The notes below the pieces were generated by a model, which saw only the letters and a program-made list of their open reading frames with translations, had not been told where the DNA came from and ran no database searches. Shown piece after piece: positions 6,203 to 11,338 of a stretch of 58,227 bases of DNA. This DNA is from Erysipelothrix aquatica. GTDB lineage: Bacteria > Bacillota_I > Bacilli_A > Erysipelotrichales > Erysipelotrichaceae. The first letter of the stretch is position 1. Every line of letters starts with the position of its first letter. The DNA lies in NCBI RefSeq assembly GCF_009828775.2, contig NZ_WTSY02000013.1, positions 1 through 58,227 on the forward strand, in the 5' to 3' direction. Made by a program: the position numbers and the translations under genes.

Positions 6203-8713
6203 ATGGAAGAGAATAAAGAATTTGATCGCGTAAAATCGCGTAGTATTTCTGATGAAATGAAGAAATCTTTCGTTTCATATGCAATGTCCGTTATTGTCTC
6301 ACGTGCCCTTCCAGATGTACGTGATGGATTGAAGCCTGTTCACCGTCGTATTCTATATGCGATGAATGATTTGGGTATGACGAGTGATAAACCGTATAAG
6401 AAATCTGCACGTATTGTTGGGGACGTAATTGGTAAGTATCACCCTCACGGTGATAGTGCTGTCTATGAATCAATGGTTCGTATGTCACAAGACTTCTCTT
6501 ATCGTTACATGCTAGTCGATGGCCATGGTAACTTTGGCTCAATTGATGGTGATGGTGCTGCGGCGATGCGTTATACTGAAGCTCGTATGTCCAAAATTTC
6601 GATGGAAATGATGCGCGATATTAACAAAGAAACTGTTGATTTTCAACCTAACTATGATGGGGAAGAGACAGAACCTTCAGTTCTACCTTCACGTTTTCCG
6701 AATGTTTTAGTTAATGGTGGAACGGGGATTGCTGTCGGGATGGCAACGAATATCCCTCCTCATAACTTAGGAGAAGTCATTGATGCTACAATTGCGTTAA
6801 TTGATAATCCGGAAATCACAATTAAAGAATTGATGGATGAATATATTTTTGGTCCAGATTTCCCAACAGGAGCTTATTTACTAGGACGCTCAGGTATTAA
6901 GTCAGCATTTGAAACAGGTCGTGGATCTGTAGTTATGCGTGCTAAAGTTGATATTACGGAGTTACCTAATGGGAAGCCGGTTCTCACAATTTCTGAAATA
7001 CCTTACCAAGTAAATAAAGCGAATCTTGTTGAGAAAATCGCTAGTCTTGTTCGTGATAAGGAAATTGAAGGAATTACTGACTTAAGAGATGAGTCAAACC
7101 GAGTCGGTATCAAAATAGTTATTGAATTACGACGCGAAATACAACCGGAAGTTGTATTAAACCAACTATACCGTTTAACCGCTATGCAATCGACATTTGG
7201 TGTGAATATGTTAGCGTTGGTCGATAATAGACCAAAACTTCTCAATCTTCTTGAAATACTAGGATATTATCGAGATCACCAAATCGAAATTATCACACGA
7301 AGAACGCGATTCGAACTTCGAAAAGCTGAAGAACGTGCTCATATTCTCGAAGGAATGATCATTGCTCTTGATAATATTGATGAAGTAATGACAATTATTA
7401 GAAGTTCAAATGATGATGCTGAGGCAAGTAGTCGTCTTAATGAACGATTTGGCCTTACAGCAATTCAATCTAAAGCAATCTTAGATATGCAGTTCAGACG
7501 TCTGACTGGATTGCAACGTGAAAAACTCGATGCAGAATACGCAGAGTTAACACTAACAATAGAAGATTTAAAAGATATTCTCGCAAATCACAGTCGTGTT
7601 TTAGATATAATTAAGACAGATTTAGAAGAAATTAAGACTAAATTTGGTGATCCAAGACGCTCTGAAGTAATAGAAGCAGATATCGATATGCTTGATGAAG
7701 ATTTGATACCGGAAGAAGATATCGTAATTTCGATGACTATGAATGGTTATATTAAGCGTACAACTATAGACTCCTTTAATGTTCAAAATAGAGGTGGTAA
7801 GGGTGTTAAAGGTATGGCGACATACGATGAAGATGAAATTGATCAGTTCTTAGCTCTTTCAACTCATGATTACTTACTGGTCTTTACTAATAAAGGTAAA
7901 GTGTATAGAATGCGTGGATTTAATGTTCCTGCAGCAAGTAGAACTGCTAAAGGAATTCCAGTCGTCAACTTACTATCTCTGGATGAAGGAGAAGAAGTAC
8001 GTACGCTGGTGAAAGTACCTAGAGATGATGAAGACTCTAAATATGCATTCTTCGTAACTCGACAAGGTATTGTAAAACGTGTTGCAGTGAGTGAGTTTGA
8101 GTCAATTCGACAAAATGGTAAAATTGCAATTACGCTACGCGAAGACGATGAACTCGTGGCTGTCAAAATGACGGATGGTTCAAATGAAATTATCATCGGT
8201 GGAGGCAACGGTAAAGCAGTTCGCTTTGACGAGAATGAAGTTCGACCAATGGGACGTACTGCATCTGGTGTTCGAGGATTCGATGTTGATGGTGGAATCG
8301 TCGTAGGGGTCGCAACTGACCGTGAAGGTAAGTATATTTTAGCCATTACTGAAAAAGGTTATGGAAAACGTACTGAATTAGATGAGTATCGCTTAACCAA
8401 ACGTGGTGCTAAAGGTGTTAAAACAGTTAATATTACTGAGAAGAACGGAAATCTCGTATCGCTTCGTGCTGTCGAAGGTGATGAAGAGCTTCTTGTTATT
8501 TCAAGTGATGGAACTGTTATCCGTACAGAAGTTGCAAATATAGGAATATATGGTCGTTCAACGATTGGTGTTCGAATTATCAATGTTGGAGAAAATGACG
8601 CTGTAGCTTCAGTCGCGGTGTTGAAAGTTAGTGAAGAAATTGCTGACTCAGATACCGATGATAAGTCACACGATGATACAGTGACTGAAACCGAAACTGT
8701 AGATTCAGAATAA
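6203..8713 (+). CDS. gyrA: DNA gyrase subunit A
   Basis: An 836-residue DNA-cleaving subunit of gyrase. The catalytic Tyr is Tyr124 in AAMRYTEAR. The quinolone-determining region reads [12 protein letters not shown] with Ser85 and Glu89, the ordinary susceptible state in Gram-positives. The C-terminal pinwheel begins with the GyrA box [10 protein letters not shown] and contains repeated KRT/RG blades; an acidic tail ([11 protein letters not shown]...) ends the protein. It starts 10 bp after gyrB behind AGGGAGG (6192-6198). Codon use and length are typical. A strong terminator follows. Confidence 0.98.
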
Positions 8714-8721
8714 TATAGTAT

Positions 8722-8755
8722 AAAAGCATACGATTAGTCGTATGCTTTTTCTTTA
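8722..8755 (+). terminator. Terminator after gyrA
   Basis: A 12-bp perfect stem (AAAAGCATACGA at 8722-8733 with TCGTATGCTTTT at 8738-8749), a four-base loop and a T tract. It separates gyrA from the serS promoter. Confidence 0.9.
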
Positions 8756-8777
8756 TCTACAATTAAAACTTACTAAT

Positions 8778-8806
8778 TTGACAATAAATACAGTAATGGC
8801 TATAAT
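8778..8806 (+). promoter_or_regulatory. Consensus sigma-A promoter of serS
   Basis: TTGACA at 8778-8783, a 17-base spacer and TATAAT at 8801-8806 match the sigma-A consensus exactly. Transcription should start near 8813, just upstream of the T-box leader. Confidence 0.9.
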
Positions 8807-8812
8807 TATCTT

Positions 8813-9018
8813 AAACTCAGTGTGAGGGAATAATATAGTCGCAAGTTATTTAAAGAGAGATACTGTTGGTGAGAGGTATTATTAATTGATTATAGATCTA
8901 CCCTTGAGAGATTAAGTTCGGAAGACAGCCGTTATCTGTTAAAGGAATGTTTCACGTGAAACATTCGAAAAAGGGTGGCACCACGGTAAATCCGTCCCTT
9001 AATGAGGGTGTTTTTTTT
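8813..9018 (+). promoter_or_regulatory. Serine T-box leader of serS
   Basis: A T-box riboswitch that should sense uncharged tRNA-Ser and let transcription read into serS. In order: an AGAGAGA bulge element (8854-8860), the distal-loop motif GGTGAGAG (8868-8875), a candidate specifier TCT followed by A (8897-8900, a serine codon), the T-box proper AAGGGTGGCACCACGG (8971-8986), then CCCT...AGGG and a T run (9010-9018) as terminator. The T-box and terminator are clear; the specifier is my best reading, not proven. Unusually, a perfect parS palindrome sits between the Stem III region and the antiterminator. This leader fills the only gene-free stretch over 300 bases in the window (8714-9036). Confidence 0.9.
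8948..8963. other. parS: parS site 1 (ParB-binding)
   Basis: TGTTTCACGTGAAACA is an exact copy of the chromosomal parS consensus bound by ParB/Spo0J. It is extended to a perfect 22-base palindrome (8945-8966). It lies inside the transcribed T-box leader of serS, so the RNA would also carry an 11-bp hairpin here. Confidence 0.92.
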
Positions 9019-9036
9019 ATTTTAGGAGAGATAGTT

Positions 9037-10326
9037 ATGTTAGATATTAATCTATTTAGAACTGATGCGGATATTATTCGCGAAAACATAAAGAAAAAAT
9101 TCCAAGATCACAAGCTACCGATGGTCGATGAAATCATTGCATTGGATATTGAATATCGTGGTTTAAAGACACGTGCGGACGAATTGCGTGGTCAAAGAAA
9201 CTCATTAAGTAAGGAAATTGGTAAACTAATGGGTCAAAAGAGAATCGATGAAGCAAATTCCATTAAAGAGCAAGTTCAAGCATTTGCTAAAGAACTTGAA
9301 GAAATTGAGCAAAATGAAGAGCCGGTATTTGAAAAATTACAACAACTCTTGATGCAAATACCGAACTTAATAGCTGATGATGTTCCTTTGGGAAAAGATG
9401 ACAGTGAAAATGTTGAGCGCTCACGTCATGGTGAAATGGTAGAAAAGCCATTTGAAGTCCCTTATCATGTAGATATTATGGAGTCATTCGATGGAATCGA
9501 CTTAGATGCAGCACGAAAAGTTAGTGGACAAGGATTCTACTACTTACAAAAGGATGTTGCGCGTCTTCATTCAGCTGTCACTGCATACGCGAGAGACTTC
9601 ATGATTGATCGTGGTTATGATTATGTCATTCCACCATATATGATTCGTAGTCACGTTGTTACTGGTGTAATGAGTTTCGAAGAAATGGAAAATATGATGT
9701 ATAAGGTTGAAGGTGAGGATCTGTACTTAATTGGTACCAGTGAACACTCAATGATTGGTAAGTTTATTGATACAATCAACCCTGAATCTAAGATGCCTCA
9801 ACGCCTCACTAGCTACTCACCTTGCTTCCGTAAAGAAGTAGGTGCTCATGGAATAGAAGAGCGAGGAGTATATAGAATACACCAGTTTGAGAAGCAAGAG
9901 ATGGTTATTGTATGTAAACCGGAAGAAAGTGCTGCATTATTTGAAGAAATGTACAAAAATTCAGTTGATTACTTCCGAAGTTTAGATATTCCAGTCAGAG
10001 TACTAGAGTGCTGCTCAGGGGATTTAGCTGATCTAAAACACAAATCTGTTGATGTTGAAGCATGGAGTCCTCGTCAAAAGAAATTCTTCGAAGTAGGAAG
10101 TTGTTCAAACCTTACAGATGCTCAAGCAAGAAGACTGAAAATAAGAATTGATACAAAAGACGGACGCGTATTTGCACATACTTTAAACAATACAGTTGTT
10201 GCACCTCCGCGGATGCTTATCGCATTTTTAGAGAATAACCTTCAAGAAGATGGTTCAGTACTAATTCCTGAAGCATTAAGACCTTACATGGGATTCAAAG
10301 AGAAAATGGTTCCTGTATCTAAATAA
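9037..10326 (+). CDS. serS: Seryl-tRNA synthetase
   Basis: A 429-residue class II synthetase that charges tRNA-Ser. The N-terminal coiled-coil arm binds the long variable arm of the tRNA (about residues 25-105, rich in Lys/Glu/Gln). The catalytic core shows the motif TSEHSMIGKF, motif 2 with FRKEVGAHG, and motif 3 NNTVVAPPRMLIAFLENN. I start at ATG 9037 (MLDINLFRTD), six bases after AGGAGAG at 9024-9030. The frame is open further upstream to 8947 but that part is the parS and T-box sequence. Expression is controlled by the T-box leader. Confidence 0.97.
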   Translation: MLDINLFRTDADIIRENIKKKFQDHKLPMVDEIIALDIEYRGLKTRADELRGQRNSLSKEIGKLMGQKRIDEANSIKEQVQAFAKELEEIEQNEEPVFEKLQQLLMQIPNLIADDVPLGKDDSENVERSRHGEMVEKPFEVPYHVDIMESFDGIDLDAARKVSGQGFYYLQKDVARLHSAVTAYARDFMIDRGYDYVIPPYMIRSHVVTGVMSFEEMENMMYKVEGEDLYLIGTSEHSMIGKFIDTINPESKMPQRLTSYSPCFRKEVGAHGIEERGVYRIHQFEKQEMVIVCKPEESAALFEEMYKNSVDYFRSLDIPVRVLECCSGDLADLKHKSVDVEAWSPRQKKFFEVGSCSNLTDAQARRLKIRIDTKDGRVFAHTLNNTVVAPPRMLIAFLENNLQEDGSVLIPEALRPYMGFKEKMVPVSK

Positions 10327-11202: not shown

Positions 11203-11218
11203 TGTTTCACGTGAAACG
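11203..11218. other. parS: parS site 2 (one mismatch)
   Basis: TGTTTCACGTGAAACG matches 15 of 16 positions of the ParB site. It lies between the divergent HAD phosphatase gene and the SRP RNA promoter, 2.25 kb from site 1, as expected for clustered origin-proximal parS sites. Confidence 0.85.
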
Positions 11219-11246: not shown

Positions 11247-11252
11247 AACTAT

Positions 11253-11338
11253 GCTACTACAACATAATCTAATGAACCAGGTCAGGGTAGGAATACAGCA
11301 GCCTTAATTTAGCTCTTATGTGTGTAGTGGCTTTTTTT
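11253..11338 (+). ncRNA. ffs: Signal recognition particle RNA (4.5S type)
   Basis: A short bacterial SRP RNA without an Alu domain, which binds Ffh to target nascent membrane proteins. The universal helix 8 core is present: CCAGGTCAGG (11278-11287), a GGAA tetraloop at 11290-11293 closed by GTA/TAC, then AGCAGCC. The 5' arm 11253-11267 pairs with 11316-11331 through 15 base pairs with one bulged G. A T run (11332-11338) ends the transcript. Position before tadA and near dnaX matches other Firmicutes. Confidence 0.93.

Follow-up and report, generated by a model that had tools for sequence, protein, structure and literature searches.

A parS palindrome that probably doubles as Stem III of the serS T-box leader in Erysipelothrix aquatica

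The leader of the seryl-tRNA synthetase gene (serS) of Erysipelothrix aquatica contains a perfect parS site, and the palindrome that encloses this site coincides with Stem III of a T-box riboswitch. The structural correspondence between parS and Stem III is well supported by comparison with related leaders, and we consider it quite probable that one sequence acts as parS in DNA and as Stem III of the serS T-box in RNA. A single palindrome thus appears to have been selected both as the DNA site of a segregation protein and as a riboswitch helix. The parS site and the serS T-box are each ordinary; their conserved fusion, with flanking pairs that co-vary, appears to be new. A literature search for parS together with T-box, serS, riboswitch, or terminator, in which subscription journals were thinly covered, returned no description of such an arrangement.

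The serS leader and its parS site

The window (the whole stretch of DNA analyzed, 58,227 nucleotides) contains recF-gyrB-gyrA, and serS lies 3' of these genes. The features of the serS region are as follows.

8722 to 8749, plus strand: terminator-like hairpin 3' of gyrA, with a 12-pair stem and a T-rich tail
8778 to 8806, plus strand: predicted serS promoter, TTGACA-N17-TATAAT, 12 of 12 consensus matches
8811 to 9002, plus strand: serS T-box leader, RF00230, full-length model (1 to 219)
8897 to 8899, plus strand: specifier UCU, a serine codon, from the cmscan alignment (AGA-UCU-ACC)
8929 to 8934, plus strand: CCGTTA, F-box, stem IIA/B, from the sequence and the cmscan alignment
8945 to 8966, plus strand: 22-bp palindrome assigned to T-box Stem III, from the cmscan Stem III columns, the RNA fold, and flank co-variation
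8948 to 8963, unstranded: parS TGTTTCACGTGAAACA, exact match
8973 to 8998, plus strand: T-box sequence and antiterminator, GGGTGGCACC...GTCCC, from the cmscan alignment
8993 to 9018, plus strand: terminator-like hairpin and U run (terminator scan; stem plus T run at 8993 to 9010), competing with the antiterminator
9037 to 10326, plus strand: serS, seryl-tRNA synthetase (MLDINLF...), Pfam PF02403 and PF00587
11203 to 11218, unstranded: second chromosomal parS, TGTTTCACGTGAAACG, with one mismatch, 31 bp before the SRP RNA
11250 to 11337, plus strand: small SRP RNA, RF00169, 63.7 bits

The terminator-like hairpin at 8722 to 8749 would separate gyrA transcription from that of serS, and a consensus scan of positions 8690 to 9060 found the TTGACA-17-TATAAT element to be the sole promoter of its kind. 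The T-box leader was matched by cmscan at 92.3 bits (E value, 4e-21), where the gathering score is 93; scores for relatives that share this parS Stem III range from 100 to 137. Its specifier fits the downstream gene, since UCU (Ser) stands ahead of serS, and the equivalent place in relatives holds UCA, UCC, or UCU. The canonical T-box structure did not emerge when the whole leader RNA was folded, and the energy was unremarkable (z = −1.26); no conclusion here draws on that fold. No leader match was found among plasmid records.

As the preliminary description of this DNA had stated, the leader contains an exact parS (TGTTTCACGTGAAACA) within a perfect 22-bp palindrome, GAATGTTTCACGTGAAACATTC. 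The site conforms exactly to the 16-bp consensus TGTTNCACGTGNAACA, and no other perfect parS occurs in the 2.15-Mb genome; the chance expectation for a given 16-mer in 58 kb is about 1e-5. The second site, at 11203 to 11218, is spaced 2.2 kb from it. The same description had flagged MFHVKH as a false N-terminus, and this reading stands: the list of open reading frames shows that the palindrome's ATG at 8947 begins a reading frame that continues uninterrupted into serS but starts inside the leader, yielding a false 30-amino-acid extension of SerS (8947 to 9036, MFHVKHSKKGG...). Because of this continuity, the extension is a genuine annotation risk, and the leader accounts for the false MFHVKH start.

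ParA, ParB, and Noc are also encoded in the genome; their genes lie on a different contig, arranged as rsmG-noc-parA-parB. Noc scores above its NCBIfam cutoff, and ParB is recognized by the ParB domain model TIGR00180. The residues that separate parS binders from Noc are R173 and G201 versus Q and R (PMC7383237). Read by eye, these positions are R and G in the ParB of this genome (KSR and MGH) and Q and R in its Noc (KSQ and ERH). In several single-contig relatives, serS lies 9 to 13 kb from the start of the record, which, if these records begin at the origin as we assume, places the serS-leader parS near the replication origin.

Correspondence of the palindrome to Stem III

The palindrome had been described as lying between Stem III and the antiterminator, and its hairpin as a neighbor of the switch that could alter it. 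This placement is not borne out. cmscan places both arms of the palindrome on both arms of Stem III; the palindrome is thus Stem III itself rather than its neighbor, and corresponds to the normal Stem III of the discriminator. Formation of an RNA hairpin had also been proposed and is supported by folding of the palindrome alone, but the proposed length of 11 bp is not, as the predicted stem is 9 bp long, with ACGU as its 4-nt loop (−10.4 kcal/mol; z = −3.06).

The same alignment is found in relatives from several families, where parS falls on the Stem III columns of Rfam-confirmed T-boxes, including some whose SerS proteins are only ~32% identical. We surveyed 108 serS loci of the family, a sample in which Erysipelothrix is over-weighted with 13 loci: 93 contain a serS T-box, of which 45 use parS as Stem III and 48 do not, and 15 have no T-box motif. 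The start of parS lies 25 to 32 nt ahead of GGTGG in every one of the 45 leaders, and in this survey no parS occurs elsewhere within a T-box leader. Most leaders that lack parS have an unrelated hairpin in this slot, between the F-box and the T-box sequence; its stem and loop vary from leader to leader, and some leaders have no Stem III at all. These unrelated hairpins usually have GAGUG-like purines on the 5' side and AA on the 3' side; the published Stem III signature is RRRxG before and AA after the stem (PMC7583486). An exact RRRxG precedes 25/45 parS stems and 11/33 other stems, and AA follows 28/45 and 16/33, respectively; the Erysipelothrix leaders have GA, not AA, 3' of Stem III. A constraint at the DNA level is visible in the parS core and ACGU loop, which are nearly invariant (43/45), whereas the loops of the other Stem III hairpins all differ.

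To assess constraint at the RNA level, we examined bases outside the 16-bp core, which the ParB consensus does not fix. Watson-Crick and G-U combinations were counted as pairs, and expected counts were derived from base composition. Among 38 distinct leader sites, the first three flanking pairs are formed in 38, 38, and 35 cases (expected, 21.6, 27.8, and 19.9). The 137 remaining parS sites in these loci have the same pairs in 99, 89, and 68 cases (expected, 85.9, 77.2, and 62.5), which is only slightly above chance; these nonleader sites lead us to reject the idea that palindromic flanks accompany every parS. Species that are related do not count as independent observations. When each genus is represented by a single site, 18, 18, and 16.7 of 18 are paired (expected, 10, 14.2, and 9.7); the observed total was not attained in any shuffle. 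On the SerS tree, the identity of the flanking pairs changes at least 8, 7, and 21 times, with pairing, G-U included, mostly retained. The use of G-U pairs in the flanks points to a constraint on RNA and away from an extended DNA palindrome. The free position within the core (5 with 12) is unpaired in 1 of 42 leader rows (TT) and in 12 of 133 nonleader sites (CA, TT, or CT), a small sample. Since the flanks co-vary with G-U pairs while the core and loop stay at the parS consensus, constraints on both DNA and RNA are visible.

Occurrence in Erysipelothrix and other bacteria

Comparison with close relatives had been suggested as a check, and the palindrome site is present in the serS leader of all 13 Erysipelothrix genomes. 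Twelve have the parS-plus-T-box pattern, and the 13th has TGTTTCATGTGAAACA, with a one-letter change in the core, in the same slot; absence from a close relative was not seen. Each of the single-contig genomes of the genus contains only two sites within one mismatch of the parS consensus, ~2.2 kb apart: the serS-leader site and a second one whose counterpart in the window directly precedes the SRP RNA. The pair recurs with this spacing in most of the genus. In one Erysipelothrix genome (L312), three sites near serS, one of them in the leader, have the altered core TGTTTCATGTGAAACA on one strand or the other, and one further parS is perfect.

Beyond the genus, we scanned 84,980 bacterial and archaeal species for TGTTNCACGTGNAACA followed, after 0 to 30 nt, by GGTGGNACC. 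This pattern matched 111 stretches. By a simple motif rule, 74 of these are T-boxes, all from Bacillota and mostly from Erysipelotrichaceae; SerS is encoded downstream of 72, and the remaining two loci end too early for this to be checked. The leaders of E. tonsillarum, E. inopinata, and E. anatis are among the matches. The other 37 stretches, mostly from other phyla, do not resemble T-boxes and are not accompanied by SerS. In a class-level sample, 17 of 395 genomes match, across several families. Collectively, these data suggest that, in a single bacterial lineage, at least 74 species share the double use of parS and Stem III. For the spacing searched (parS 0 to 30 nt before GGTGGNACC), parS in T-boxes of genes other than serS was considered and rejected, and none of the 13 other T-boxes of the E. 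aquatica genome contains a parS-like site.

The trait is distributed unevenly in the family. By genus, 18 have parS as Stem III, 24 have a T-box without it, 5 have no T-box motif, and 4 are mixed between the last two states. The trait changes at least seven times on the SerS tree, where many forks are weak and gain cannot be distinguished from loss. Because many genera of the family do without the overlap, neither function needs it. Two genera bear on whether the functions are separable. In g29 (L298 and L299), the Stem III slot of the T-box contains a decayed parS in which the hairpin has re-formed, and an intact parS lies downstream. In g212, no T-box is found by motif, nor by Rfam in one member, and parS is kept 28 nt before the start codon without extended pairing. 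Both cases fit the idea that the two constraints may be lost singly, the direction of change being inferred.

Two probable roles of one sequence

As double-stranded DNA, positions 8948 to 8963 would be a candidate ParB-loading site, one of two in the chromosome and close to the origin, which ParB would presumably occupy. In the nascent RNA, the palindrome and its flanking pairs would form Stem III of the serS T-box and, with the antiterminator, the discriminator that senses charging of tRNA-Ser; we expect this T-box to switch normally with a stem that bears parS. The simplest reading is that the two roles merely share letters.

A regulatory link between the roles, of which ParB spreading with an effect on serS transcription had been proposed in the preliminary description, would go further. 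ParB at parS could repress serS or act as a roadblock to its transcription, or transcription and the state of tRNA could alter ParB loading; as speculation, ParB loading could be coupled mutually to RNA polymerase and to tRNA-Ser-dependent folding of the leader, connecting serine supply with origin segregation. The T-box terminator lies downstream of parS, so the site should be transcribed with serS on or off, which favors such a link. Precedents for an influence of ParB on neighboring genes go both ways: ParB of Pseudomonas aeruginosa represses two parS-adjacent genes, whereas genes beside parS in Bacillus subtilis are unchanged upon loss of Spo0J (PMC7022226). Against a link, serS and parS are also adjacent without overlap in many genera. 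We regard both the link and its mutual form as unlikely, though the least unlikely of the alternatives considered here.

Slightly less probable is that parS functions in DNA alone and by chance is situated in an intergenic leader near oriC, the RNA hairpin being incidental. serS is indeed close to the origin, parS sites cluster around it throughout the family, those outside leaders lying right after the serS stop codon or up to ~4 kb downstream, and any perfect palindrome will give some hairpin. A chance location is nonetheless disfavored by the confinement of leader copies to the Stem III slot, by flanks that co-vary and use G-U pairs, unlike those of the other parS sites of the family, and by the presence of a non-parS hairpin in the same slot of other leaders. 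Finally, an RNA hairpin that merely resembles parS and is no longer used by ParB would suit the need for a Stem III hairpin in most of these leaders and its retention in g29, but is very improbable given that other Stem III elements are free in sequence and loop while dozens of species retain the 16-bp parS consensus in these stems, and that the serS-leader site is one of only two parS sites in complete Erysipelothrix genomes.

We return to a shared sequence with two roles as the preferred reading. The site resembles chromosomal ParABS parS sites of the Bacillota type (TGTTNCACGTGNAACA) in its exact core, its proximity to the origin, and the presence of parA-parB and noc in the genome, and differs from the nonleader parS sites of the family in lying within a structured regulatory RNA whose flanking pairs co-vary. 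The leader resembles a transcriptional serS T-box (RF00230), with Stem I containing UCU, stem IIA/B, Stem III, antiterminator, and terminator in order; Stem III is usually free in sequence, whereas here it is held to the parS consensus.

In Neisseriaceae and Pasteurellaceae, DNA uptake sequences double as transcription terminators. The arrangement described here is similar in that a signal at the DNA level is also an RNA hairpin, but differs in that a centromere-like palindrome would serve as a helix of a tRNA-sensing riboswitch. Functional RNA thus need not be avoided by parS sites, and the variable Stem III of the T-box may carry other information. The serS leader also offers a natural system in which to study possible interference between ParB complexes and the transcription of a structured leader.

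Two further observations concern parS sites in other contexts. A second, very divergent SerS (32 to 34% identity) has parS within its coding sequence (L274 and L276, about +317 in serS; also L275, L277, and L278). This divergent SerS also has a T-box with parS as Stem III in genus g196 and some other families of the class; gene replacement in situ under a retained leader is one possibility. Some nonleader parS sites resemble intrinsic terminators of gyrA or serS, with an extended palindrome and a T run after it (relative to the start or end of serS: L244, −296; L253, −266; L242, +20; L249, +24; L251, +21; L258, +22; L288, +1171). By a simple rule, 13 of 149 nonleader sites, several of them from one genus, are terminator-like, versus a mean of 2.4 (maximum, 8) in shuffled sequences.
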